Source of the DNA: Dulcicalothrix desertica PCC 7102
Lineage (GTDB): Bacteria > Cyanobacteriota > Cyanobacteriia > Cyanobacteriales > Nostocaceae
Direction of reading: 5' to 3'
DNA length: 64,000 nt
NCBI RefSeq assembly: GCF_003991905.1
Contig: NZ_RSCL01000003.1
Coordinates: 153,092 to 217,091, forward strand
Shown here one piece after another: positions 47,811 to 64,000 of the stretch (the stretch's first letter is position 1; each line of letters begins with the position of its first letter). Position numbers and translations under genes: made by a program. The notes under the pieces are model-generated. The model saw nothing but the letters and a program-made list of their open reading frames with translations, was not told the origin of the DNA and did no database searches.

Positions 47811-48875
47811 ATGATGCTTGCCGATAAAGTTAGTACGGATAGCACCGAACTGCGTCCAGTTAAGTTATGGATGCCAGAACGAGTAGTGTTTACACCCGCA
47901 GCGCTTGATGAACCTTGGGGACAGAAGATTAAGCAGCGTATAGAAGCGCTCAATTTACCTATTGAGGAGTTGCCACGTAACCGTCTTACTGGTTTACGCG
48001 GAGAAACTGAGCGCGAGACTTATGATATTTCTAAGCGTACTCTTGCTGTAGTAACGGCGCCACCAAGTCAGTTTAAGCTTAGTCCTATTCCACCTTCTGC
48101 TGACTGGCAGTTCCATTTAGCTGAGGGTTGTCCAGCACATTGTCAATATTGTTACCTAGCTGGCAGTTTAAGTGGGCCACCAGTAATTAGAGCATATGCT
48201 AACTTACCGCAAATCTTAGATAATTTAGCTAAATATGAGCAACCTGGAAAGGCTACTAGTTATGAGGTTAGCTGTTATACCGACCCGCTTGGTATTGAGC
48301 ATTTAACGGGTAGTTTAGCTGAGTGCATTCGTTATTTTGGTACTCGCGAAGATGGTTATTTACGTTGGGTATCGAAGTTTGATGCTGTGGAACCACTTTT
48401 AGATTTACCACATAACGGACATACTCGTTGTCGAGTTAGTGTAAATGCGGCGCCTATTTCTGGTAAGTTTGAAGGTGGTACTGCGTCAGTGGCATCTCGA
48501 TTAATGGGACTTAGAAAGTTAGCATTGGCAAAGTACCCAGTTGGGCTAGTAGTGGCACCAATTATGCCAATGGAAGATTGGGAAATACACTACAGTAATT
48601 TGTTTGACCAAATTAGCAACGCATTAGACTTTGAATGTGATTTAACTTTCGAGTTAATATCGCACCGCTTTACACCTGGTTCCAAAGAAGTATTACAAAG
48701 CTGGTATCCACACTCAAAATTAGATATGGATGAAGAAAAGCGCAGCGTTAAGCGTAACAAATTTGGTGGTACCAAGTATGTGTACGATAACGATATTATG
48801 AAGACACTACGCCGCTTCTTTGAAGGTGAAATTGGGCGCCGTTTTCCCAATGCCAAAATCCTATACTGGACTTAA
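47811..48875 (+). CDS. Radical SAM protein of the spore photoproduct lyase (SplB-like) family
   Basis: A 354-residue protein. The radical-SAM cluster motif is C107-x3-C111-x2-C114 in EGCPAHCQYCYLAG. Next come EVSCYTDPLGIEHL, RCRVSVNAAP and VGLVVAPIMP, typical of SplB-like proteins. Non-sporulating cyanobacteria carry this family; the substrate may be a DNA photolesion but is not shown here. The gene diverges from agrE. Confidence 0.88.
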   Translation: MMLADKVSTDSTELRPVKLWMPERVVFTPAALDEPWGQKIKQRIEALNLPIEELPRNRLTGLRGETERETYDISKRTLAVVTAPPSQFKLSPIPPSADWQFHLAEGCPAHCQYCYLAGSLSGPPVIRAYANLPQILDNLAKYEQPGKATSYEVSCYTDPLGIEHLTGSLAECIRYFGTREDGYLRWVSKFDAVEPLLDLPHNGHTRCRVSVNAAPISGKFEGGTASVASRLMGLRKLALAKYPVGLVVAPIMPMEDWEIHYSNLFDQISNALDFECDLTFELISHRFTPGSKEVLQSWYPHSKLDMDEEKRSVKRNKFGGTKYVYDNDIMKTLRRFFEGEIGRRFPNAKILYWT

Positions 48876-50400: not shown

Positions 50401-53400
50401 ATGATTCAAATTGGTTCACTAGTACGTTCGCTTGATAATGAACTAGGTACGGGAAAGGTAGTTCAACATAGTAATCAAGACGTAGTAGTTGAGTATTTCT
50501 GCTCAGTAGGGCAATGTATTGAGGAAACAGTACCTTTAGGTGAGTTGCGTCGGGTAACACTTCAGCGTCAAACTCGTTGCTACGTAAAGTCAGAGAGTGA
50601 TAGATGGTTGATAGGAAGAGTTTTTGGTTGGGATGAAAATCACGGCGCCTATCAAATTGATTTGCCTGACAGTAAAACTTTGTTTGCTAGGGAGCGGGAT
50701 GTATATGTTCGCTGCAATTTGCCTATCGAAGACCCTATCGATATATTGACGTATAAGGGTCAAGAAACGCCTTATTTCCACCAAAGACGTTTTGCGCTGG
50801 TGAAAAACCTAACTTCGCAACGCGCGGTTAGTCGAGGAATGACGGGGTTAATTTCTGCGAATATTGAGTTGCTGCGTCATCAGGTTGAAGTTGTGCGTCG
50901 GGTACTTGAAGACCCTATTCAACGGTATTTGTTAGCTGATGAGGTCGGACTAGGAAAAACGGTTGAAGCAGGCGCCATTTTGCGTCAATATTTACTCGAT
51001 GACCCAGAGAGACGTGCGATAGTATTGGCGCCGCAGTATTTACTCGAACAGTGGCGTACTGAGTTGAAGAATAAGTTTTATCTGTCGCATTTTCCCGATA
51101 GGGTAGTATTAGCAGCGGTTGAGGATGTTCACAAAGTTAATGCAAAAGCTGATATTGGGCTAATAATTATAGATGAAGCTCACCACGTAGCAGCGATGGC
51201 AAGGTCAACGGATGCAGTAAAGCGCAGCAGCTTTGGAGCTTTTAAAAAGCTTGCTCACCAGTCAGAGCGGTTGCTACTACTTTCTGCGACTCCTGTCGTC
51301 AACAACGAGGAAGATTTTTTGTCAATGTTGCATTTGCTCGACCCGACAAATTATAAATTAGATGATTTGGAAGGTTTCCGTGACCGGGTGGCAAAGCGTC
51401 AAGATATTGGTCGAGTATTATTGTCGTTTCAAGAGGGTGCAAATCCTTTCGTCCTCAAAAATCAGGTTACACAACTTTGCAGTTTATTTCCCGAAGATAA
51501 ATACTTATCAGATTTGGCAGAAAAGCTACAAAATTCTTTACAAGAAAAAACTGGTAACGAAAATAAAATAGTTAGAGCGATTCGGACTCATATTAGCGAT
51601 ACATATAGACTTTACCGTCGAATGCTGCGTAATCGTCGCGCTTCTGTGGAGGATGTAATTTTTGACAGGAATGTGGCGCCGAAAGCTGAGTATGATTTAG
51701 ATGAGCGTGTTTACGACATTCATGAGTTAATGGAAGAATGGCGTGGGTTGGCGCCTGATAACTCAAACTATCACCGCATCTTTTTACTATTGTTCCGTGC
51801 TAGTGGTACTTGGTTAGGAATTTTACAGCAAGTTCTCGAAGCGCGTTTGAAGGGTAGTTTTCCTCAAGTGTTGACGAAAGAGTTTGACACAGACAGTTTG
51901 AATATTCTGACTGAAACTCCCAAATTCGACAAAGAAGAGGAAATTTTACAAGGTTTGCTAAAAATTCTTGAGAAACCCTCAGAAGATGGCGACCGTTTGG
52001 TGTTACTGAGAATAGTAATACTTTACAAGCTCTCAGAAAACTTTAAACTCCAATCGTTCCGTAGTAATTTACCTAAGTTACTCGAACAAGTGCAATTACG
52101 GTTAAGAAGACCAATACCTGGAGATAAGCTACCAAAAATAGTGATATTTACCAGTTATGTACAAGTTTGCGCTCAAATCATCAAGTTTTTGCGAGATAGT
52201 TTTGGAGAATCATGTATTGCGAGTCATTTACTTGGAGAACCACGAGCGCAAGTAGAAAAGAGTCTTGATAGATTTAAAAATGACCCTAACTGCTTTATTC
52301 TCGTTTGCGACTATTCGGGTGAAGAAGGTCGTAATTTGCAATATGCTGACTCGATGATACATTTTGACTTGCCTTGGTCGCCAAATCGTTTAGAGCAACG
52401 AATTGGTAGAATTGACCGTATTGGGCGCCAGTTGAATGTAGAATTTACGGTATTTGCAGGCGCCGAGATAGATGACAGTCCCCACGATGCATGGTATCAA
52501 TTGTTGAAAGATGGATTTAATATCTTTGAGCAGTCGATAGCAAGCTTCCAGTTTTATGTTGATGGGAAACTGCCACAGCTAGAAGCAACTTTGTTTAAAT
52601 CTGGGGCAAATGGGCTTTTAGAAAGTGTAGAGCAAGTTAAACAAGAAATAGGCGCCGAGCTTGTTAAAATAGACGAGCAAAACACCTTAGATGAAATTAA
52701 CGCTCTCGATGAAATCGCTAGCGAGTACTTTGAAAGCTTAGATAACTTTGATGCTCAACATCAAGAAATCGAGCGAGTTACCGAAGACTGGTTATGTAAC
52801 GCTTTACGATTAAAGCAGCTAAACGACCCAAATGTCTCAGCAGCACAGCGTTATGAACCAACACAGAAAACCCTAATACCCATTGACGATTTGAGAACTT
52901 ACTTCGTGGGGTTAACAAACGATACAGGTACATATAACCGAAGAGTTGCCAATCAAAAACCCAACGTCAACCTGTATCGAATTGGTGAAGGTTTAATCGA
53001 CTCATTATCATCTTATATACATTGGGATGACCGAGGTCAAGCATTTGCCATGTGGCGAGTTGACGATAGTTGGGAAAAGAGCGAAGGTGCTGAATGGTTT
53101 GGTTTTAGATTTGACTACATTATCGAAACCGACCTAAGTAGTTATAAAATAGACCCAATCAAGTACAAAACACTACAACGTCGTGCAGATAGCTTATTTC
53201 CACCAATCATCCAAAGTATCTTTATCGACGCACGCAACGAGCCAATGAGCATTGTTGAAGACGAAGCATTGTTAGAAATATTACAACGCCAGTACAAAGG
53301 CAAAGGTAAACCGCCAATTAAACCGCCAATTAAAGCTGCCGATAAAGCTGCCGCCAAAACAGCTAGTAAAACACCTCCAAAAGGCGCCAACAACCAAGAT

Positions 53401-53787
53401 TACAACCTAGCAAAAAGTCGTTTGCCAATACTAGATAACTTTATACACCCAGACGATTGGCAAGATTTTTGTCGCGACGCGCGTAACACATCTGTAGAGT
53501 TACTAATTAGCCAAGATAACTTTATAGAAATGTGTGACAAAACAGCAGCAAGCGCAGAACAAAAACTAGGAAGACGACTCGAACAACTGCGTTTACGTCT
53601 CAACCGCATCAAGCAACAAGAAAAAATGATCGACAAATCACTTACCCAAGAAGTAATAGAAGAAGCCAAACTCAATCAAGCAATAATAGAAGGTATCCGT
53701 CACCCCAATATTCGCCTTGACTCCGTAGGCTTCATTATCGTTTCCGGGCGCCCTCCCATTACTGGAGGAGAAACCGAAGACTGGTAA
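50401..53787 (+). CDS. dpdE: DpdE, SNF2-like helicase of the 7-deazaguanine DNA island
   Basis: An 1128-residue SF2 helicase of the RapA/SNF2 type. Visible motifs are ADEVGLGKTVEAG (about 179-191), IIDEAHH (about 256), LLLSATPV, and GRIDRIGRQL (about 672-681) in motif VI. A KOW-like N-terminal region precedes the helicase. Near residue 970 a low-complexity Lys/Pro/Ala linker (PPIKPPIKAADKAAAK) leads to a coiled C-terminal tail. Gene order E-F-G-H-I-J downstream supports the Dpd assignment; DpdE belongs to the restriction side of that system. A 789-bp gap before dpdF is longer than expected for one operon. Confidence 0.85.
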   Translation: MIQIGSLVRSLDNELGTGKVVQHSNQDVVVEYFCSVGQCIEETVPLGELRRVTLQRQTRCYVKSESDRWLIGRVFGWDENHGAYQIDLPDSKTLFARERDVYVRCNLPIEDPIDILTYKGQETPYFHQRRFALVKNLTSQRAVSRGMTGLISANIELLRHQVEVVRRVLEDPIQRYLLADEVGLGKTVEAGAILRQYLLDDPERRAIVLAPQYLLEQWRTELKNKFYLSHFPDRVVLAAVEDVHKVNAKADIGLIIIDEAHHVAAMARSTDAVKRSSFGAFKKLAHQSERLLLLSATPVVNNEEDFLSMLHLLDPTNYKLDDLEGFRDRVAKRQDIGRVLLSFQEGANPFVLKNQVTQLCSLFPEDKYLSDLAEKLQNSLQEKTGNENKIVRAIRTHISDTYRLYRRMLRNRRASVEDVIFDRNVAPKAEYDLDERVYDIHELMEEWRGLAPDNSNYHRIFLLLFRASGTWLGILQQVLEARLKGSFPQVLTKEFDTDSLNILTETPKFDKEEEILQGLLKILEKPSEDGDRLVLLRIVILYKLSENFKLQSFRSNLPKLLEQVQLRLRRPIPGDKLPKIVIFTSYVQVCAQIIKFLRDSFGESCIASHLLGEPRAQVEKSLDRFKNDPNCFILVCDYSGEEGRNLQYADSMIHFDLPWSPNRLEQRIGRIDRIGRQLNVEFTVFAGAEIDDSPHDAWYQLLKDGFNIFEQSIASFQFYVDGKLPQLEATLFKSGANGLLESVEQVKQEIGAELVKIDEQNTLDEINALDEIASEYFESLDNFDAQHQEIERVTEDWLCNALRLKQLNDPNVSAAQRYEPTQKTLIPIDDLRTYFVGLTNDTGTYNRRVANQKPNVNLYRIGEGLIDSLSSYIHWDDRGQAFAMWRVDDSWEKSEGAEWFGFRFDYIIETDLSSYKIDPIKYKTLQRRADSLFPPIIQSIFIDARNEPMSIVEDEALLEILQRQYKGKGKPPIKPPIKAADKAAAKTASKTPPKGANNQDYNLAKSRLPILDNFIHPDDWQDFCRDARNTSVELLISQDNFIEMCDKTAASAEQKLGRRLEQLRLRLNRIKQQEKMIDKSLTQEVIEEAKLNQAIIEGIRHPNIRLDSVGFIIVSGRPPITGGETEDW

Positions 53788-54576
53788 TAGTCCTGTATTT
53801 GTGGAACGGGCATCCCTGCCCGTTTGTAACATTCAAATGTATGGTGCGGGACGTCACGCACCAACTATTATTTTTTACCACAAAGACACACTCAACACAG
53901 AGAAGAAAAGCAAAGTACGGCGCCTTGAATATGGGCAAAAAGCCATGTACAGCAATACGTTTATAAAAATTATAAGCAATTATCTACTGACATCACCCTT
54001 GTGGCAAAATTACAACAGTACATGTTAGACTCATGGGAATACGATAATTTTTCTTAGCTGCTAGTGCAATTTAAATTTTACTTATTGTTGATAAGCCTGA
54101 ATTAGTACATTTGCCTTATCAAAATAACTGGCGCACCTAATTTTAGTTCCTATAAAATTGTGTATTCCCTATTTTATCTTGTTATCTTATTCATCTTGTT
54201 CTCTTGTGGAACGGGCATCCTTGCCCGTTTGTAATGTTGAAATTTATAGGACGGGCAGGGATGCCCATCCCACAAGATGCATCACAAGATGTATCATAAG
54301 ATGTATAATTACTTCCCAAGATTACTGATTTTATTTTTAAAAATATTAAACTGCTGGCGCCGTTATCATTCTCAAACTATCCAGTATAAGTAGTATTACG
54401 AGTACGAAAAATTACAGTTGGCAATTTTAAAAATAAAATGTTACAAAAAATTTAACTGGAGTTAATCCGGATTTAATATTTTTTTGATGAATATACTTGG
54501 CTAATATTAATCGTATTAGTTAAATTACTGAGATTATATAGATAAATATTATACATAAATGAACCAGTGATGATTT
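53788..54576. other. 789-bp spacer between dpdE and dpdF, rich in repeats
   Basis: No gene is supported. It holds three copies of the GGAACGGGC hairpin family (53801-53828, 54206-54236, 54249-54278), a GGTGCG/CACGCACC hairpin (53842-53863), a CACAAAGACACACTCAACAC stretch, and a short tandem repeat of ACAAGATG units at 54270-54308. The last 100 bp are AT-rich and may hold a separate dpdF promoter. Confidence 0.6.
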
Positions 54577-57114
54577 ATGACAGATTCGTTTGCGGAACTG
54601 CAAGAAATTCTCGAAACAGGTAACGTTCCTGAAGATACAAGACATATTACAGAACCTTGTCATCGGCGCCTTCTCGATGCGTTACTTGATAATGCGGTTT
54701 CTTCGGGAGATATTGCGAGTTTAGTACGTCATGTACTGCGACGAGAAGATGAAAAACAGGGTGGAAGTTCTGCAACTGTTATCAACGTATCTCGTAAACC
54801 TCGTTTTCCAAAGCGTGAAGTTTGGGAAAAAAGTAGTATCAGTATTTACAATGGCGACGATAAAGAATATTACACGATTAGCGCGCGTCCTTGGGAACCA
54901 GAATGGCTAGATATTGTAAATAAACCTCCAGATAAAGCTGTTTTTAAAGAGGAACTTCGGCGAAATTATGATTATGTCGCAGGAGACCCGTTTTTAAAGC
55001 TTATGGGTTTAGATAATTATCGCAGTGTTGGTCAACGAAGTGCGATTCATAGTATTTTGACGGCGCCTGTTGATGCTACTTTGATAATTAATCTACCTAC
55101 AGGTTCAGGAAAAAGTCTTTGCGCGCAGTTACCAGCTTTGCTAAATTCGCAACATAGAGGTGTAAGTATAGTAGTAGTGCCAACAACAGCACTAGCGATA
55201 GACCAGGAAAAAGGATTGAAGTCTATTATTAAGCATGATACGGCGTATTACAGTGATGATAGCCAAGAGGGGAAAGAACGACGTGAGGCAATACGCACAC
55301 GAATTCGTGAAGGTACTCAAAGGATAATTTTTACCTCTCCTGAAAGTTTAATGGATTCACTGGCGCCTGCGTTATACGAAGCAGCAAAGCAAGGAACGTT
55401 AAAGTACTTTATCATCGACGAAGCGCACATGGTCGAGCAGTGGGGAGATGATTTTCGTCCTGCTTTCCAAGAAATTCCAGGTTTGCGAAAAGATTTATTA
55501 CGTCTTGGTTCTTTTACAACACTACTACTAACTGCGACTCTTACTGAATCTTGCCTAGAAACCTTAGAATCATTATTTGGAAAAGACCTGAAAGTAATTT
55601 CTGCCGTACAGTTACGTCCAGAACCTTCGTACTGGTTTAACGAGTGTAGAAACGAAGAAGTTAGGGAAGAAAGATTAATTGAAGCAGTATATAATCTCCC
55701 ACGTCCTTTAATTATCTATGGAACCAAAGTTGAAGATGTTAAAAAATGGAAAAAGCAATTAGAGAAAGCAGGGTTTAAAAGATGTGACTTGATGACAGGT
55801 AAATCGACTTCTAAACAAAGATTAGAGCTAATTGAGAAATGGCGAGATAGAAAAATAGATATAGTAGTGGCAACTTCTGCATTTGGATTAGGTATTGACC
55901 AAGCAGACGTGCGTGCGGTAATTCATGTTTGTGTGCCTGAAACTATTGACAGATTTTATCAAGAAGTTGGTAGAGGTGGAAGAGACGGTAAAGCATCAAT
56001 CTCATTAACGCTGTATACAGAAAACGATATAAAAACTGCTCGTGGAATTAATGAGAAATCAGCAATCACTATTGAAAGAGGTAAAGAGCGTTGGCAAACA
56101 ATGTTTGATAGGAAAAAAAGTATAGGTGATGGTAGATATCGTGTTCCCGTCAATACACCTCCTTCTTTGCGACCAGAAGATATAGATATGGATAGCAAGC
56201 AAAATACAGCTTGGAATATCCGCACTTTAACTTTGATGAGTCGGGCAAAGTTGATTGAAATCGATTTTGAAGAACCACCACTGAAAAAAGACTTTGAGTT
56301 TGAGTCAGAAGCAGCATATGAAAAAGCATGGGAACATTACCGTAATCAGAGAGTAATTCGTATTCGTAATGAATTACATCTAGATAAATCTACCTGGGAG
56401 TCTGAAGTAGAACCAATCCGCAAGCAGCGTCAAAGCAATAGCTACAAAAATATTGAGCTAATGATAGAAGCTTTAAATGCCAAACGATGCATTTCAGAAA
56501 TCTTTCAAGAAGCCTATACAATTTTCCTACGTAATGTGGGAGAAGCAAAAAATAGAGTGAAAGTATTTCGGTCTTGTGGTGGTTGTCATGTTTGTAGGAA
56601 CAATGCGATTGAACCTTTTTCAGGAATCATGCCTGAACCTGGTGTTATATGGCAAAAACCCAATCAGCAATGGGGTGAAGAACTTGAGGGATTGTTGTGG
56701 GGTGAGAAATTGCTACTAATTTTCTATGATTCATTGGAAGAAAAAAATATAAAGCGCCAATTCAATCGAGTTTTTAAATGGTTTTTAGAACAAGGTATTA
56801 AGAACGTAATTATTCTCAAAGAATATCAGGAAAATTTGATGAAGGAGGTTAGTCGAATCCCCAATGCTTTAATTTTTCTTTGGGAAAGTTATCAACCTAT
56901 AAAAATGCCGAGCGAACCCACATTAATTTTTCATCCTCCAGGAAAAAGACTACCATTTAATTATTTATCACAAAAGAGTATGCCACAGGCGCCTAGAATA
57001 ATATTGTTACCTACAGACACTCCTGACCCTAATAGAACCGATAGAAAATTAATTGACATTTTTCCAGGACGGTATTTTAAATTTGAACTCTTCTGTATGG
57101 AGATTGGTATATGA
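54577..57114 (+). CDS. dpdF: DpdF, RecQ-like helicase of the 7-deazaguanine DNA island
   Basis: An 845-residue RecQ-like SF2 helicase. Motifs are NLPTGSGKSLCAQ (from N172), IIDEAHMVEQWGDDFRP (about 277-293), LLLTATLTE, VATSAFGLGIDQADVRAVIH and YQEVGRGGRDGKAS. A zinc-like Cys cluster SCGGCHVCRNN (about 664-676) lies in the C-terminal half. An N-terminal region of about 130 residues with no known motif precedes the helicase. It overlaps dpdG by 4 bp (ATGA), so translation is coupled. Confidence 0.87.
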   Translation: MTDSFAELQEILETGNVPEDTRHITEPCHRRLLDALLDNAVSSGDIASLVRHVLRREDEKQGGSSATVINVSRKPRFPKREVWEKSSISIYNGDDKEYYTISARPWEPEWLDIVNKPPDKAVFKEELRRNYDYVAGDPFLKLMGLDNYRSVGQRSAIHSILTAPVDATLIINLPTGSGKSLCAQLPALLNSQHRGVSIVVVPTTALAIDQEKGLKSIIKHDTAYYSDDSQEGKERREAIRTRIREGTQRIIFTSPESLMDSLAPALYEAAKQGTLKYFIIDEAHMVEQWGDDFRPAFQEIPGLRKDLLRLGSFTTLLLTATLTESCLETLESLFGKDLKVISAVQLRPEPSYWFNECRNEEVREERLIEAVYNLPRPLIIYGTKVEDVKKWKKQLEKAGFKRCDLMTGKSTSKQRLELIEKWRDRKIDIVVATSAFGLGIDQADVRAVIHVCVPETIDRFYQEVGRGGRDGKASISLTLYTENDIKTARGINEKSAITIERGKERWQTMFDRKKSIGDGRYRVPVNTPPSLRPEDIDMDSKQNTAWNIRTLTLMSRAKLIEIDFEEPPLKKDFEFESEAAYEKAWEHYRNQRVIRIRNELHLDKSTWESEVEPIRKQRQSNSYKNIELMIEALNAKRCISEIFQEAYTIFLRNVGEAKNRVKVFRSCGGCHVCRNNAIEPFSGIMPEPGVIWQKPNQQWGEELEGLLWGEKLLLIFYDSLEEKNIKRQFNRVFKWFLEQGIKNVIILKEYQENLMKEVSRIPNALIFLWESYQPIKMPSEPTLIFHPPGKRLPFNYLSQKSMPQAPRIILLPTDTPDPNRTDRKLIDIFPGRYFKFELFCMEIGI

Positions 57115-58019
57115 GTATTTTGAAAGAACCTTTGGCAACTCCTAGTAGAGTTAGAGGAATTTTTAGATATCTGTTACAAGCGAAAGGGCAAAAAGAAAAA
57201 AGAGAAGTATTAGAAAAGCTTTTGTCACCAGATGAACTGGTAAAAGATGCACCCCCGGGCCGTCCAATGTTTCGCAAAACGATTAATCAAATTAAAACTA
57301 GAACAGTAAATGAAAATATTAACATTGGTCTTTTGATTGAAGAAGAAGACGAGATAGCTATAAATCCAAGTCTTCCAGAAGATGCTAGAAATCCTCAAAT
57401 TGGCGACAAATTATTACCTGATACTCTAACTACTCTATTTTTTGCCTCTGATAACGCAGATGAAGAAGACTTTGGTCTTGTTTGCGCTTGGTTTCTAGCA
57501 CAAGATATATACGATGCTCCTGGAAACTGGGAAGCAATACAAAATCAAGTCAACGCGCAAAAAGTAGGTGAGTTGCTAAAAATGACAAACAATTCACTTT
57601 TTGGTCAGATGGATGACTGGATGTGCTATTTAGGGTTGTCTTGGGGTCATGCGTTAGAAGGACAGAAGGTTATTGTACCCGACCCTACACTTTATATAAA
57701 ACGCAATTTAAAGCGTATATTTAATGAGCAGGTCGGTACAAAAATTTTAATTAGAGAATTTATTGATAAATTAGCAGAACAATGTCCTTTATTTGAAACG
57801 GGTAAATTTCGAGATGAGATAGAAATAAATATTGGACGGCGTCAATTAAATTATCTTTCTACAAGTACAGCTTTTGCATTATTTAGATTACGCGATGAAG
57901 GTTATATTGAACTAAAAAGAGAGTCCGATGCTGACTTGATGATTTTACCAAAAGCAAATAATCGAGTTGATAGCGAAGGGCAAATTTCTCATATTATTTG
58001 GCAAGGAGAAAAACTATGA
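57111..58019 (+). CDS. dpdG: DpdG, 7-deazaguanine DNA island protein
   Basis: A 302-residue soluble protein with no enzymatic motif visible. Assignment rests on its position between DpdF and DpdH, its length, and translational coupling at both ends (ATGA overlaps at 57111 and at 58016). It contains an acidic middle (IEEEDEIAINPSLPED). The end (YLSTSTAFALFRLRDEGYIE, about 249-268) looks like a winged-helix-type fold. Function within the Dpd restriction module is unknown. Confidence 0.75.
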   Translation: MSILKEPLATPSRVRGIFRYLLQAKGQKEKREVLEKLLSPDELVKDAPPGRPMFRKTINQIKTRTVNENINIGLLIEEEDEIAINPSLPEDARNPQIGDKLLPDTLTTLFFASDNADEEDFGLVCAWFLAQDIYDAPGNWEAIQNQVNAQKVGELLKMTNNSLFGQMDDWMCYLGLSWGHALEGQKVIVPDPTLYIKRNLKRIFNEQVGTKILIREFIDKLAEQCPLFETGKFRDEIEINIGRRQLNYLSTSTAFALFRLRDEGYIELKRESDADLMILPKANNRVDSEGQISHIIWQGEKL

Positions 58020-61000
58020 GTTTTGAAAACTTTGTTTGCTGGGATTTAGAAAAAGTACGTAGGGTGATGAATGTTGAAGCAATTCAAGCAGATAATCATT
58101 TGTTTTTGGCAACTCATCATCCAATCGCAATGTACCTTCAAGACCTGATAGAGGCGCCATCACGAATTGAATATGATGAGGAGAAGTTTTTAAAAGATTT
58201 TCTTGCAGAAAATAATTTTGCTTTTGTTCCTGTTTTAGGTGGTTCTGGCACAGGTAAGTCTCATTTAATTCGCTGGTTAGCTGCAAAAATCCAATCAACT
58301 TCTAAACGTAAAGTATTATTAATTCCTAAAATTGGTACTAATTTAAAAGATATTATTATTCGCATTCTCGATGGCATGGAGGGACAAAAATTTGATGAAT
58401 ATCGTCAGCGTATCGATAGAACTAGCAATAGTTTAACAGAAATTCAAATTAGAGAAAATCTTTTAAATCAACTTGCCATAGCTATCGGACCGAATGGTCA
58501 GCATGACTATAATAATCTTAATGACAATCAACAATATATTGTTGGTGAAGATGGTTTAGAAACACTTTTATATGACAATTTTTTTCGTAGAAGTTATTGG
58601 CTTAAAGATGGAGGGATTATCCAACAATTAGTTGCTCATATTTTCGGACAAAGTGATACGGTGGAAAATATTGAAGCCAGGAAAGAGTTTTCAGTTAATG
58701 ATTTGCCAAAAAACGTAACAAATTTCAAACAAGCAGGGAGTTCTGCACAAGCATTTTATAGCTACTTGATTAGTAATGATGATATTCAAGTAGAAACTGT
58801 AAAATGGTTGAATAGGCATTTAGACAACGCAATTACAAGAGTATTAGATTTAGGTCGTGAAGACTTACAAAGACTAATGCGAGAAGTGCGCGAAACTCTT
58901 GCAGAACAAGAAATAGAACTAGTTTTATTAATCGAGGATTTCGCTAAGTTACAAGGTATTGACCGAGAAGTATTAGAAGCAGTTTTAGCACGACCCGAAC
59001 AACCAGGAAAAAAACCTTTGTGTGCGATTCGTACAGCTTTAGCTTGTACTACAGGTTATTTCGCAAGTTTTGTTGACACCATCAAACAGCGTATAACTTT
59101 CAGCGTTAATCTTGATGTTGGCACAGTTAATAATAAATCTTTAGTTACACAAGCTGATATCCAAAAATTTGTTGCCAGATATTTAAATGCGGTTCGCTTA
59201 GATGACCAAGCTATTCTTGATTGGGCAAATAATAATCAAGAACAAGATTACAAAAATGAAGCACCAGTTAGTTTTTGTAATGAGTGCAAACATCGTCAAG
59301 CTTGTGACGCAGGATTTGGAAGTATTAATGAAATTGGATTGTATCCTTTTAACAGTGAAGCATTAGAGCAAATGTTAGGTCGAGTTAATAAAGGTACTTT
59401 TAACCCTCGAATATTAATAAAGGATGTATTAAAGTATACTCTTGACAATGGATTAGAAGATATCAGAAAAGGAAGTTTTCCATCTACTAGTTTACGCGCG
59501 CATTTTGGTAATATGCGGTTAAGTGCAATAGCGCAATCAAACATTAAATCAAAAGACCCACAAAACTTTGAGCGACGTGCGGTACTTATTGATTTGTGGA
59601 CTAATAGTCAGGAGCTTTGTAATTTACCTATTGAAGTACACACTGCTTTTAATCTACCTTATATACAGGGCAACATTAATTTTGCAGAAACTAAAACAGA
59701 GCTTAATCAGGTCAGGTATACTACATCGCAATCTCAACCAAGTCAAGTTACGCAAACTCCACGTGCTGTTGAAACTCAAGGAGGGAGAGGTTACAAAGTT
59801 GACTCAAAAACTTCAATAGAAACAACTGAGCAAAGCGAGGCAGAAATTCCAGAAAAGTTACAAGAACAGATAAGAATTTTAGATAACTGGAACAATCAAG
59901 GTATTTTACCTCAAGATTTAGCAGCATATTTACGTGAATTTATTTACCCTGCAATAATTGCCAGAATTCAATGGGATGATGAACTTTTATTAGGAAAGGT
60001 TTTTGCAAGTAGCACTAGCAAATATTTTAAGCAAAGAAATATAGTTTACTATAGTCCTAGAGTAACAAGAGAAACAATATCTGGGGTTAAATTATCGCTT
60101 CCTCTAAACCCTAATGACTCCGATGAGTTTAGAGAAACAGCCATAGCATTTCAAGCTATCTTACAATATAAGTATTATAAGAACTGGAAGTTTCCAGACG
60201 GTGACTACTACTTCCGTATTTACAGCAAGCTACTTGATAAATGGAGTCAGTATGTACTAAATACTATCCGTCTTTACGACCGTGAGTCAGGAGAAGTTTG
60301 GAACCCAGTACCAGCAGCAGTAGAATTATTAGCAATAGCTGCAACAATGGCAGGACACGCAACTAATTCTCTAGAAAACTTGATTAATGCGTTATTTCTT
60401 GATTTAGATAGAGACGATGCAACTCGCAGTCAAAGTTGGAAGAAGCTTTATGATTCTCTTAAAAAACAACGTGATGACTTATTAGAAGTTGTTAGAAGTC
60501 GAATTGCTTGCACAAAAGGTAGTTCACCTCAATTTCAAATTATCGATGTTGTTCAAATTATCGAACCCTTAGAAAAAGTCAGAAAGTCATGGAAACCCCA
60601 ATGCGAAATTCCTTTAGATTTTGGCGATAAATTTCCAGAAATCTCTAAAGCACGTCAGCAGGTAGATCAGTTACTGGAACAAGCAATTCAAGAAGAATAT
60701 GACCGTCAGTTTAAAAGCTATAACTTGTTGATATCCGACTTAGGTGAAGATATTAAGAAAACAGAAGTTCTTGATGCTGTAAAATCAGCATTAGAACATG
60801 CACAAGACGCAGCTGTATTACGTGGTGGTAAAAGCGCTGAGGAATTAACAAAAGTTATCGATCAATTCCGTCGCACTGCAATCACTAAATATCAGGACGT
60901 AATGAAGCGCGTTCAAACAGAGAAAGAAGCAGGGAACGATTCGGGCAAAATATTGCAGCTTCTAAGCGAAGATTTTCAAAAAGTCATTTTCGATTCTTCA

Positions 61001-61162
61001 CAATTTTTGCGGTATACAAATAATTTTCTAGATGCTTCGATTTTAAAAGCGCGAGAGTCTATTAATGATTTAGAGGAATTTGAAGGAGGTTCTATAGAAT
61101 CTTGCTATCAAGGGATTAAAGAAGATTTAGCTGATTTGCAAAGTTTGATTAATGAAATTTAA
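58016..61162 (+). CDS. dpdH: DpdH, large P-loop ATPase of the 7-deazaguanine DNA island
   Basis: The protein has 1048 residues from the ATG at 58016; AAGGAG lies 7 bp before it, and an earlier TTG in frame is less likely. A P-loop LGGSGTGKSHLIRWL (about 74-88) and a Walker-B-like VLLIEDFAKLQG (about 304-315) define an AAA+/STAND-type ATPase. A Cys cluster FCNECKHRQAC (about 420-430) may bind zinc. The C-terminal half is helical with likely coiled coils. It resembles anti-phage ATPases that couple target sensing to other subunits. It is 11 bp from dpdI. Confidence 0.83.
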   Translation: MSFENFVCWDLEKVRRVMNVEAIQADNHLFLATHHPIAMYLQDLIEAPSRIEYDEEKFLKDFLAENNFAFVPVLGGSGTGKSHLIRWLAAKIQSTSKRKVLLIPKIGTNLKDIIIRILDGMEGQKFDEYRQRIDRTSNSLTEIQIRENLLNQLAIAIGPNGQHDYNNLNDNQQYIVGEDGLETLLYDNFFRRSYWLKDGGIIQQLVAHIFGQSDTVENIEARKEFSVNDLPKNVTNFKQAGSSAQAFYSYLISNDDIQVETVKWLNRHLDNAITRVLDLGREDLQRLMREVRETLAEQEIELVLLIEDFAKLQGIDREVLEAVLARPEQPGKKPLCAIRTALACTTGYFASFVDTIKQRITFSVNLDVGTVNNKSLVTQADIQKFVARYLNAVRLDDQAILDWANNNQEQDYKNEAPVSFCNECKHRQACDAGFGSINEIGLYPFNSEALEQMLGRVNKGTFNPRILIKDVLKYTLDNGLEDIRKGSFPSTSLRAHFGNMRLSAIAQSNIKSKDPQNFERRAVLIDLWTNSQELCNLPIEVHTAFNLPYIQGNINFAETKTELNQVRYTTSQSQPSQVTQTPRAVETQGGRGYKVDSKTSIETTEQSEAEIPEKLQEQIRILDNWNNQGILPQDLAAYLREFIYPAIIARIQWDDELLLGKVFASSTSKYFKQRNIVYYSPRVTRETISGVKLSLPLNPNDSDEFRETAIAFQAILQYKYYKNWKFPDGDYYFRIYSKLLDKWSQYVLNTIRLYDRESGEVWNPVPAAVELLAIAATMAGHATNSLENLINALFLDLDRDDATRSQSWKKLYDSLKKQRDDLLEVVRSRIACTKGSSPQFQIIDVVQIIEPLEKVRKSWKPQCEIPLDFGDKFPEISKARQQVDQLLEQAIQEEYDRQFKSYNLLISDLGEDIKKTEVLDAVKSALEHAQDAAVLRGGKSAEELTKVIDQFRRTAITKYQDVMKRVQTEKEAGNDSGKILQLLSEDFQKVIFDSSQFLRYTNNFLDASILKARESINDLEEFEGGSIESCYQGIKEDLADLQSLINEI

Positions 61163-61173
61163 GGAATAATAGA

Positions 61174-61869
61174 ATGCTTTTAGACAAAGCTCAGGAATTT
61201 ATTGAATTATGCGAAATCAAGAAAACTAAACAAAAATTTGCTAGTAATCTTGACACTTTCAAATCGAAACAAAGACAAATAAATGAAGCGGTTAATACTA
61301 TTCGTCCAGTTATTGAAGCTTTAAAAGCTTTCCGTAAACGAGAGATATTAAATGATGTGGCGCCAACAACGAGTGATTTATTAGCTACTATAACCGAAGC
61401 TGAAAAAAAATTTAATGAAAATTCTGATTCAATTATTGATTTTAAAGTCAACACTTTAAAGTCAAGAATCGAAACTCTAAAAAAAATCCTAGAGCAGCAG
61501 TTAATTCAATCTTGGAAAACCTATTTAAATGATAATATGCCTAGTACAAATAATGAAGTACTAAATGTAATGGCAAAATTTGATGAATTCAAACAAACTG
61601 TTAACGAAATTCGGAATTTAGATAAAGAGATAAAGGAAGTTAACTATCCTAAAAACGATGCTGAATTTACCAAACATGAAGGCAAAATCAAACAATTAAA
61701 GCTGTGCTGGGATGTCGAATCAGATAAATTTCCCGAAACAATATTGCAGTTCCTGAAAGATGCAGCTAACCCCAATAAAGGTGCCTCTCTAAATCTTCTC
61801 ACCACCGAGGTTAAAGATTGGATTGAGAAGTATAATATTTCTGATTCGTTAAAAATCCGCTTAACTTAG
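61174..61869 (+). CDS. dpdI: DpdI, coiled-coil protein of the 7-deazaguanine DNA island
   Basis: A 231-residue, highly charged and helical protein (SNLDTFKSKQRQINEAVNTI, then FDEFKQTVNEIRNLDKEIKE), rich in coiled coil. No catalytic motif is seen. It follows dpdH by 11 bp and occupies the dpdI position, so the name is by synteny; direct sequence evidence is weak. It may bridge DpdH and DpdJ. Confidence 0.62.
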   Translation: MLLDKAQEFIELCEIKKTKQKFASNLDTFKSKQRQINEAVNTIRPVIEALKAFRKREILNDVAPTTSDLLATITEAEKKFNENSDSIIDFKVNTLKSRIETLKKILEQQLIQSWKTYLNDNMPSTNNEVLNVMAKFDEFKQTVNEIRNLDKEIKEVNYPKNDAEFTKHEGKIKQLKLCWDVESDKFPETILQFLKDAANPNKGASLNLLTTEVKDWIEKYNISDSLKIRLT

Positions 61870-61878
61870 ATATCTTAT

Positions 61879-61950
61879 GTCATTAGTAGTGTAACGAAGC
61901 ATCTTCTAATTCTCATTATCTCAAAGATTCTTCGCTACGCTACTAATGAC
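61879..61950. repeat. 72-bp imperfect inverted repeat between dpdI and dpdJ
   Basis: GTCATTAGTAGTGTAACGAAGC at the left matches, with few mismatches, the complement of GCTTCGCTACGCTACTAATG at the right (the right arm reads TTCGCTACGCTACTAATGAC). It fills most of the 102-bp gap and could act as an internal terminator or an RNA hairpin that sets dpdJ expression below dpdI. Confidence 0.7.
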
Positions 61951-61971
61951 AATACTTACTTTTTGGGTTAT

Positions 61972-64000
61972 ATGGTTATTGATTGGGATAAGTTAGTTAG
62001 GGAATTTCTCGATACCTTAGAGCGCAAAGAGGTGCAACTTCTCTCGTGGGGTATTGTTGATGGTGGATTTTCTGAAGAAGAAATAGAAGAACTAGCACAA
62101 GAGTTCTTTGATAATAACGATATTGATGAGGATGCTTGGGATTTAGTGGAGTTAATGCTGGAACGGCGCCTTATATTCGATTTTAACATCAGAGGTCGGC
62201 GCCTATACCGCAGTCGCATGGCTGAAGCGGTAAGATTATTCGCGCGTCTTCGTCAACTTTTCCCTAGCAATAATTGGCAAACTGCCCCTACAATGGTTGC
62301 CGATTATCGTTTACAAATTACCCCTAGAGTTTATCCCAGAAGACATATAACGTTACAAACTGTAATTGAGTATTTACAAAATGACAAACAAAATGACAAA
62401 GTATTAACTCCCATACGGCAACAAGCAATTACAGCTATTCTTGATTCCCCTACAAGTGATAATGAAATTTTACTTGCTGATTTTCAATTACGCGCGACGA
62501 GTAGAATGTTGCGCGATTTGAATAGTACAAAAAGTCGGGGGATGATTGTTTGTGCGGGTACGGGGACAGGGAAGACTTTGGCTTTTTACTTGCCTGCATT
62601 GGCACATATTGCGGGTTTGGTTAAAAAAGATGAGTATTGGAGTAAGGGTTTAGCTATTTATCCTCGTAATGAGCTTCTCAAAGACCAATTTTCTGAAACT
62701 TACCAACAAGCACGGCGCCTTGATGCTGTTTTAGGTAACGATAAGCGTAAAATTATTATCGGCGCCTTTTTTGGCTTAACTCCCAAAAGTGCAACTCTAC
62801 AAGATGTACAAGAGAAATGGGAGTCCCAAAGCGGTGGATTTACTTGTCCTTATTTAAGATGTCCAAAGTGTGATTCTGCTTTATCTTGGCAACGTGCTGA
62901 TTTGGAGGCAAAAAGAGAGAAACTTACTTGTTTAAACCCAGATTGCCGCAATATTATTCATGAGTCAGAAGTAATTCTCACGCGCGAGAGGATGGCAAAA
63001 ACTCCTCCTGACCTGGTTTTTACTACGACAGAAATGTTAAATCGCTCGATGAGTGATTCAAAATATGGTCATGTATTTGGAATTAGGGCGCCGAAAACCC
63101 CTCAGATTATATTACTCGATGAGGTACATACTTATACGGGAATACATGGCGCCCAAGTTGCTTATTTACTACGACGTTGGCAATACATAATTCAAAACAA
63201 AGTTCACTTTACTGGACTTTCGGCAACATTAGAAAGTGCAGCAGAATTTTTTAGTCAACTTACAGGTTTAAATTTAGGTTGGATTGAAGAAATATGTCCT
63301 GGTAATGACTTAATTGCTGAGGGGATGGAATATCAACTTGCGCTTAGAGGCGACCCTGTATCTGGCACTACTTTATTATCTAGTAGTATTTTAACGGCAG
63401 TTTTATTAAGGCGTGTGCTAGACCCTAGGGTTGAACCTGCTAGCAAAGACTTTTACGGTTCGCGGGTTTTTGCTTTTACTGATGACCTAGATGTTACTAA
63501 TCGTTTGTTCCATAACTTATTAGATACTGAAGGACTGAATAGTTGGGGGCGCCCAATTAGGAAACGTTTACCTTTAGCAGCTTTACGCGCGCGTAGTAAT
63601 GCTGAGAATAAAGAACGTTTGGTTTATGGTCAATCTTGGTTGATGTGCGAAGAAATTGGTCATGGTTTAGAAATTCCCTTAAATATTGGACGTACAAGTT
63701 CCCAAGATACAGGAGTCAGCTTAGATGCAGATATTATCGTTGCCACTGCATCTTTAGAAGTGGGATTTAATGACCCTGATGTTGGAGGTGTAATTCAACA
63801 CAAAGCACCACGCGACATGGCTTCTTTCCTTCAGCGCAAAGGACGAGCAGGACGAAAAAGAGCTATGCGACCTTGGACTGTGATAGTACTTTCTGACTAT
63901 GGACGTGACCGTATAGCTTATCAAAATTATGATATGCTATTTAGCCCAGTTCTAGAAAAGCGTTTTCTACCTATTGCCAACCGCTATGTAATACGAATTC
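61972..64000 (+). CDS. dpdJ: DpdJ, DEVH-box helicase of the 7-deazaguanine DNA island (3' end outside window)
   Basis: The frame is open from the ATG at 61972 to the window edge (676 residues so far). Motifs are CAGTGTGKTLAFYLPAL (from C194), a zinc-finger-like CPYLRCPKCDSA plus LTCLNPDCRN (about 292-325), ILLDEVHTYTG (about 381-391), FTGLSATLES, and VATASLEVGFNDPDVGG followed by LQRKGRAGRKRAM. This is a large SF2 helicase, as expected for DpdJ in the Dpd cluster. Its C-terminus and any dpdK or modification genes (dpdA, dpdB, dpdC) would lie beyond the window. Confidence 0.85.
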   Translation, partial: MVIDWDKLVREFLDTLERKEVQLLSWGIVDGGFSEEEIEELAQEFFDNNDIDEDAWDLVELMLERRLIFDFNIRGRRLYRSRMAEAVRLFARLRQLFPSNNWQTAPTMVADYRLQITPRVYPRRHITLQTVIEYLQNDKQNDKVLTPIRQQAITAILDSPTSDNEILLADFQLRATSRMLRDLNSTKSRGMIVCAGTGTGKTLAFYLPALAHIAGLVKKDEYWSKGLAIYPRNELLKDQFSETYQQARRLDAVLGNDKRKIIIGAFFGLTPKSATLQDVQEKWESQSGGFTCPYLRCPKCDSALSWQRADLEAKREKLTCLNPDCRNIIHESEVILTRERMAKTPPDLVFTTTEMLNRSMSDSKYGHVFGIRAPKTPQIILLDEVHTYTGIHGAQVAYLLRRWQYIIQNKVHFTGLSATLESAAEFFSQLTGLNLGWIEEICPGNDLIAEGMEYQLALRGDPVSGTTLLSSSILTAVLLRRVLDPRVEPASKDFYGSRVFAFTDDLDVTNRLFHNLLDTEGLNSWGRPIRKRLPLAALRARSNAENKERLVYGQSWLMCEEIGHGLEIPLNIGRTSSQDTGVSLDADIIVATASLEVGFNDPDVGGVIQHKAPRDMASFLQRKGRAGRKRAMRPWTVIVLSDYGRDRIAYQNYDMLFSPVLEKRFLPIANRYVIRI

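Follow-up and report, generated by a model that had tools for sequence, protein, structure and literature searches.

Dpd has been described as a system in which 7-deazaguanine serves as the self mark. In the available part of a 2025 review, the restriction activity associated with Dpd is described as unexplored further (PMC12707154). The DndFGH restriction module is often decoupled from its modification module and stands alone, according to the accessible text of PMC10853773, and DpdJ is treated as a YprA helicase, together with its PLD nuclease, in the accessible text of PMC12458937. Here, we analysed a 64,000-nucleotide stretch of the cyanobacterium Dulcicalothrix desertica PCC 7102 (contig C3, positions 153092-217091; hereafter the window), from a draft genome of 11.4 Mb in 109 contigs, and found a dpd locus that runs over its downstream edge. 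As a Dpd system, the locus has the restriction genes and lacks those for DpdA and DpdB, so that by its predicted gene content it is a restriction-only Dpd variant. We hold, with moderate confidence, that this is a complete Dpd restriction operon whose partner modification operon has been lost and which is kept as a stand-alone defence. With no marking genes beside it, and with part of the set apparently swapped between close relatives, the cutting apparatus may well function in the absence of the 7-deazaguanine mark.

Genes were called by comparing the window proteins with NCBIfam profiles, each with its own bit cut-off, and with PADLOC models as a second set (Table 1). The restriction operon dpdE-F-G-H-I-J-K-D was complete, with seven genes above their cut-offs and dpdI below its own, though full length (E 7e-9) and in place. 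PADLOC agreed for E, F, G, H, J, K and D and left DpdI unmatched at E<=1e-5; wherever the contig of a cyanobacterial locus continues past dpdH, a DpdI-like gene comes next. DpdJ, for which the cut-off is 800 bits, scored 1078 bits with its in-window part (the first 663 of 1482 model positions) and 1952 bits as a whole gene ending 2.5 kb beyond the window edge. An earlier note, made from the window sequence alone, had read six genes as dpdE-F-G-H-I-J in order, and the profiles bear this out; six same-strand neighbours in the canonical order are not there by chance. The ATGA overlaps it described were also recovered from coordinates and sequence (F/G at 57111-57114; G/H at 58016-58019, with ATG 58016 as the likely dpdH start). 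Its label of a DNA modification island has to be dropped, as only the restriction half is present.

Table 1. Features of the dpd locus in window coordinates (aa, amino acids)
Feature	Coordinates	Strand	Description	Evidence
dpdE	50401..53787	+	SNF2/RapA-type helicase, 1128 aa	NCBIfam NF041062, 1078 bits (cut-off 500)
spacer dpdE/dpdF	53788..54576	.	789 bp	conserved in three Calothrix loci (alignment)
dpdF	54577..57114	+	RecQ-type helicase, 845 aa	NF041063, 986 bits (cut-off 550)
dpdG	57111..58019	+	302 aa, catalytic motif not recognised	NF041064, 128 bits (cut-off 80)
dpdH	57998..61162	+	AAA-type P-loop ATPase, likely start ATG 58016	NF041065, 912 bits (cut-off 450)
dpdI	61174..61869	+	predicted coiled-coil (by eye), 231 aa	NF041066, 35.9 bits (cut-off 150)
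dpdJ	61963..64000, on to 66471	+	YprA-type helicase, 1502 aa in all	NF041067
dpdK	68075-68584 (past edge)		PLD protein	210 bits (cut-off 100)
dpdD	68597-70849 (past edge)			536 bits (cut-off 300)
putative exchanged block: C-terminal dpdF, dpdG, dpdH, dpdI	56050..61940	+	5.9 kb	identity change points, synonymous divergence, GC content

We then looked for the modification genes. The earlier note had found no dpdA, dpdB, dpdC or dpdD in the window and had placed them either past position 64000 or nowhere; dpdD, with dpdK, does lie past the edge, and dpdA, dpdB and dpdC are neither in the window nor in the 40 kb downstream of it (L010, L011), so that modification genes just past the window were rejected. 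Searches by tblastn with DpdC-DpdA proteins found no trace in the window at E<=1e-3 and none in L010 or L011, and a diverged dpdA relic beside the locus was likewise rejected. A model of the cyanobacterial DGQHR proteins found no DpdB-like gene in the window at E<=1e-4, nor in L010 or L011, and the DpdB model NF041060, which misses cyanobacterial forms, had no match genome-wide at E<=0.1. Across the whole genome, the DpdA model gave nothing above its 200-bit cut-off and a single match at E<=0.01 (67 bits, contig C59), which supports the variant without modification enzymes that the earlier note had considered. The tRNA-guanine transglycosylase (TGT) family is represented by two proteins only: an enzyme on contig C14 (516 bits), taken as the tRNA enzyme, and the C59 protein, a plasmid-type TGT/DpdA-like protein of 317 aa (L015:2961-3914). 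DUF6884, the DpdC-type domain, occurs in one gene of the genome, beside polA (by eye) and outside the island (C1:274376), and QueC is present (best match 184 bits), so the cell probably makes preQ0. As evidence against its own identification, the earlier note had named a complete genome in which dpdA homologues are absent. This is nearly what we found, in a draft genome with a weak homologue of another subfamily on a plasmid-like contig; this near-absence leaves the identity of the restriction genes intact and suggests that they persist without dpdA.

The same arrangement recurs in cyanobacteria. DpdH scored above its cut-off in 11 of 386 sampled cyanobacterial genomes, and DpdA did so in three of these 11, one of them short (G199, profile positions 1-302 of 406). 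A DpdH alignment found 154 loci in genome contigs, of which 80 were kept and 50 of these taken to a genome-wide DpdA search; DpdA was above cut-off for 28 of these 50, and among the 23 cyanobacterial loci for seven, leaving 16 without. Pooled, 10 of 34 cyanobacterial DpdH assemblies had DpdA above cut-off and 24 did not (8/11 plus 16/23). Given that several of the 16 are metagenome bins and that one, titled Tatlockia (L084), is probably a mis-binned contig, single absences are weak evidence. The three Calothrix sister genomes (L072, L086 and L088) had no DpdA match genome-wide at E<=1e-4. Eight DpdA-free genomes retain J and K, and seven of them (G000, L072, L082, L086, L088, L093 and G078) also retain D at least in part; in L071, J is in pieces and the contig ends at K. 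Thirteen cyanobacterial loci show none of J, K and D in 9 kb or more of available downstream sequence; 11 of these had no DpdA genome-wide and kept F, G, H and I, the exceptions being L103 and G105 (diverged DpdJ-like helicase). Five more (L080, L087, L096, L107 and G048) also show no J, K or D, on contigs that end too soon to tell.

Among DpdA-positive loci, a DUF6884-DpdA fusion was found in G027 (Pfam) and in G105, L081, L098 and L100 (our own models), and in the fetched flanks a second TGT-like gene was present in five and a DGQHR gene in four of the 10 DpdA-positive cyanobacterial genomes' loci; neither was found in the scanned flanks of the DpdA-free cyanobacterial loci. A substitute modification gene conserved beside cyanobacterial E-F-G-H-I was also considered and rejected: none was seen among up to five open reading frames (ORFs) on each side, and most shared neighbours reflect a shared insertion site. 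Two further clusters were noted. In G203, a genome that has dpdE-I, contig C217 holds a separate cluster in which a protein of 539 aa accompanies a HerA-like ATPase and proteins of the DUF6884 and TGT-like kinds (L067:9958-14920); HerA and TGT were named by eye and from a 22-bit DpdA match. A plasmid of Nostoc sp. NIES-3756 (L199:4497-23606) carries a DpdA-annotated 715-aa protein, a second TGT, two DEAD/DEAH helicases, an ATP-binding protein and an LlaJI-type restriction gene, another 7-deazaguanine-like arrangement.

To judge the direction of change, F, G and H were concatenated for 50 rows and a quick tree was built (LG+G4, with SH-aLRT as the only support measure and some branches long); DpdA presence changes on it at least seven times. 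Five DpdA-positive loci form a basal cyanobacterial clade, and 12 of 15 non-cyanobacterial rows are DpdA-positive as well. The window groups with the three Calothrix loci and with Nostoc spongiaeforme (L071), all of which have DpdA below cut-off or none; the L071 genome has a 44-bit match, below cut-off. Relics were also found, namely dpdC pieces in L071 and, in the Richelia locus, a DUF6884 ORF with a DpdA piece of 39 aa after it. Given this distribution and these relics, the simpler reading is that the modification half was lost. Between the window and Calothrix, the ratio of nonsynonymous to synonymous divergence (dN/dS, by a simple counting method in which synonymous divergence, dS, above 1 is rough) was 0.05-0.31 and thus well below 1 in all eight genes, as under constraint.

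Comparison with the Calothrix loci revealed a second feature. As far as the retrieved sequence reaches, the genes flanking the operon in the window and in L072, L086 and L088 show 88-97% DNA identity, so the four loci share one chromosomal site. Within the operon, window DNA was 96.7-97.3% identical to the three in dpdE, 92.7-95.9% in dpdK, 93.4-95.5% in dpdD and 84.8-89.5% in dpdJ, against 85-94% over the whole of dpdF, 73-76% in dpdG, 70-73% in dpdH and 68-70% in dpdI; the 5.9-kb stretch from C-terminal dpdF to dpdI stands at about 70%. The left change point fell at 56007-56083 in three comparisons, inside dpdF after the helicase part (300-base steps), and the right one at 61927-61961, between dpdI and dpdJ, against L086 and L088, the comparison with L072 being unusable here since its dpdJ start could not be aligned; the log-likelihood gain was 108-147. 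The helicase part of dpdF is thus conserved, and its C-terminal part lies within the block. Early dpdJ is back at 94% identity and later dpdJ of the window is at 77-92%, indicating that the window dpdJ has its own history. The dS against Calothrix was 0.99-1.74 in G, H and I and 0.09-0.13 in dpdE, and GC content was 34.8% in the block, 38.3-41.5% in the other dpd genes and 37.6% on average over the window. High dS in the block beside low dS in dpdE means that protein constraint is not the explanation, and recombination with a diverged version is the simplest one. Therefore, the C-terminal part of DpdF with DpdG, DpdH and DpdI looks to have been swapped as a cassette.

Three versions of the block occur in the four genomes: L072 and L086 share one (96-98%), the window has a second and L088 a third. 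A further case was found in L071 and L081, which are 96% identical in dpdJ and dpdK and 71-82% in F, G, H and I; here too identity changes at the dpdI/dpdJ junction. The dpdE of L107 resembles that of G203, and its dpdF-G resemble those of L076. No such step was seen between L082 and L093 (dS 0.30-0.72 across all genes) or between G199 and L057, where dS runs in the opposite direction (0.25-0.39 in E-I, 0.62-0.78 in J, K and D). Nor was cassette exchange seen in E. coli, where 58 of 5426 genomes matched an Enterobacter E-to-D query in megablast mode, which would miss more distant islands, and all 58 matches spanned at least 80% of the query at 90-95% identity.

We further found the same genes beside other partners. 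In two Lachnospiraceae loci, dpdE-F-G-H-I is directly followed by dnd phosphorothioation genes (L128:3339-19889, L143:3357-18716), and in a third dpdG-H-I is (L144:338-6085); the dnd genes are B-C-D-E-A in L128 (Pfam, PADLOC), while tblastn showed C-D-E-A in L143 and, where the L144 contig stops, B. None of these three genomes had a DpdA match, and the loci appear to be hybrids of Dpd restriction and Dnd modification. In Deinococcus taeanensis, a C59-like TGT part (28.6% identical to the C59 protein over 343 columns) lies within a DUF6884 protein whose gene closely precedes dpdE-F and dpdH. Taken together, the dnd-linked loci and the Deinococcus arrangement support a module able to combine with more than one mark, for which the separation of DndFGH from its modification genes is a precedent (PMC10853773), and the Dpd restriction engine looks modular and not tied to 7-deazaguanine. 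Two other architectures were observed: Calidithermus (L105:3467-13664) has dpdE-I with dpdA some 15 kb away, and alphaproteobacteria (L124, L133-L135, L137-L142, L149) have dpdF and dpdH, mostly with G and I and without dpdE, adjoining a DpdJ-like helicase of 2.1 kaa.

A mechanism can be proposed, in which the roles rest on family membership. Invading DNA would be recognised, or loaded onto, by a complex of the RecQ helicase DpdF with DpdG, DpdI and the ATPase DpdH. DpdE (SNF2-type) and DpdJ (a YprA-type helicase) would remodel or translocate this DNA, and its cleavage would fall to the PLD protein DpdK. Since enzymes for dPreQ0 or dADG are not encoded beside the operon, self DNA is probably not spared by 7-deazaguanine, and recognition may more likely go through a feature of invading or replicating DNA, or through a phage product. 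The exchanged block would then carry the recognition specificity, and it is our best candidate for target specificity. Swapped specificity subunits of type I restriction systems offer an analogue. It is a tentative idea, possible more than probable, that the C-terminal part of DpdF with G, H and I is an exchangeable recognition cassette in a restriction engine independent of any one mark (7-deazaguanine in some bacteria, phosphorothioate in Lachnospiraceae, none in many cyanobacteria), with a swap of the cassette shifting which invaders are attacked.

Several observations weigh against a stand-alone operon with a swapped recognition block. The C59 DpdA-like protein carries TGT-type motifs and a DUF6884 gene stands beside polA, so that modification might be supplied in trans. 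NF041060 found no DpdB in G199 and G105, both of which have a DpdB-like protein by the DGQHR model. The window dpdJ is also fairly diverged (85-90%, dS 0.34-0.48), so the swapped block is not the sole difference, and within versions dN/dS gave no sign of positive selection. Moreover, five DpdA-free relatives have damaged genes: L072 (dpdJ of 1052 aa, dpdD of 260 aa), L086 (dpdF split in two ORFs, dpdJ of 723 aa), L071 (dpdE missing, F-G inverted and dpdJ fragmented), G354 (only a piece of dpdE left, joined to dpdF) and G078 (a stop within dpdH).

The first of these points leads to the rival that survives best, although we judge it unlikely: the C59 transglycosylase, perhaps with the chromosomal DUF6884 protein, inserts a 7-deazaguanine into DNA, and the operon restricts what is unmodified. 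The C59 protein aligns with DpdA at DCGA(Y/F), PD, GGL, FDG and CxCxxC-H, which we take to be catalytic and zinc residues; its Deinococcus relative sits beside dpd genes, and preQ0 is likely available. However, the sister Calothrix genomes have no DpdA-like match, and the C59 type is rare: at E<=1e-10 it was found in three of the 386 genomes, once as a partial match of 28%, and of the 11 genomes with DpdH the window's own is the sole carrier. C59 is a 25-kb contig with DNA polymerase III delta and delta-prime genes (Pfam) and ssb, ParA and ParB genes (by eye), and thus plasmid-like; relatives occur in 19 plasmid records, 13 of them typed conjugative, and in no phage records, and on two conjugative cyanobacterial plasmids they too lie near DNA polymerase III delta and ssb-like genes; some relatives are in proteins annotated DUF6884. 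The C59 transglycosylase was rejected as a regular partner, being rare and unlinked; it might protect plasmids from restriction.

More doubtful still is that the restriction genes are harmless leftovers decaying after dpdA loss. The broken genes of the five relatives and the shortened DpdA of G199 agree with such decay, but Calothrix HK-06 (L088) and the window genome both have all eight reading frames open from end to end, with a mutual dN/dS of 0.09-0.31, and the 11 DpdA-free loci without J, K and D nevertheless retain F, G, H and I. Finally, protection of self DNA by another mark made elsewhere in the genome, phosphorothioate or methylation, is very improbable: dnd genes do follow dpdI in Lachnospiraceae and a Dam-family methylase gene lies about 17 kb downstream of dpdD (134 bits, cut-off 115), but no Dnd homologue was found at E<=1e-6 in the window, L010 or L011, to which that search was limited, and the neighbours of cyanobacterial E-F-G-H-I are common almost only to same-site loci.

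The restriction-only loci, the dnd-linked loci and the swapped block are natural experiments in which the parts of the system come apart, and they bear on which genes restrict, whether restriction requires a mark and where target choice resides; if the cassette does set the target, its swap in cyanobacteria changes which invaders are attacked. The open-access literature searched, as far as its text was available, gave no mention of Dpd loci with restriction genes only, of Dpd beside dnd or of block exchange; the 2016 Dpd paper and a 2024 review of 7-deazaguanine may mention them.

Some features of individual proteins and neighbours complete the description. Residues 142-500 of DpdF match the recQ model TIGR01389. 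DpdH exceeds the Pfam cut-off for AAA_22, keeps G81, G84, G86, K87, S88, E313 and D314 invariant in 49 sequences, and gave a single weak match to solved structures, in a C-terminal stretch, to the chain pRLB-519 (232 aa). For DpdG, a nuclease motif was rejected, as its only invariant residues across 58 sequences are M1, G175 and D273 and none is catalytic. The spacer between dpdE and dpdF is 82-97% identical between the window and Calothrix (300-base steps) and may hold a promoter for dpdF onward; it contains a recurring GGAACGGGCATCC...GCCCGTTTGTAA motif. The two small ORFs between dpdJ and dpdK had no profile match above a cut-off. This pocket takes insertions (L010:2716-4125, L040:11156-14523, L057:26868-29701), with GmrSD_N and AAA/DUF3696 genes in G078, DUF4365 and HNH genes in Nostoc C057, DUF4365 and a weak RT match in G199 and, in the window genome, a 110-aa ORF akin to the G078 ATPase. 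Upstream of the operon, 47811-48875 encodes a radical SAM protein resembling spore photoproduct lyase, at 323 bits against a cut-off of 400.

Compared with other defence systems, the locus is closest to Dpd. DrmD, DrmA and DrmC models match DpdE, DpdJ and DpdK weakly, and DpdG and DpdH match only Dpd models. DISARM is defined by a methylase with DrmA-DrmB; DpdJ scores 1952 bits as DpdJ and weakly as DrmA, and no methylase was matched among the operon proteins, unlike in DISARM, ARMADA and BRIGADE, the YprA-family systems covered in the accessible part of PMC12458937. Stand-alone DndFGH (PMC10853773, as available) consists of other proteins; here it is the Dpd module that stands alone, and in Lachnospiraceae it lies itself beside dnd. 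Half a Dpd system is known from another cyanobacterium, Hydrococcus rivularis, whose dpdAB island without restriction genes is the opposite half; the survey reporting it (PMC11888242, in the part available) required dpdAB and so could not list restriction-only loci. The Dpd island of Enterobacter cloacae plasmid pPOL9A has the same E-F-G-H-I-J-K-D order and strand, with dpdI annotated hypothetical, and after dpdD it has B, A and a DUF6884-like gene in the opposite orientation; the chromosomal island of E. coli has the same order from dpdE to dpdD. The window operon differs from both in lacking an adjoining dpdB-dpdA-dpdC, in its two small extra genes between J and K and in its cyanobacterial host. 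Plasmid p057_I of Nostoc sp. C057 likewise carries E-F-G-H-I-J and K-D without annotated dpdA, dpdB or dpdC in the 39 kb shown, and differs from the window in being plasmid-borne and in having its DUF4365 and HNH genes between J and K.

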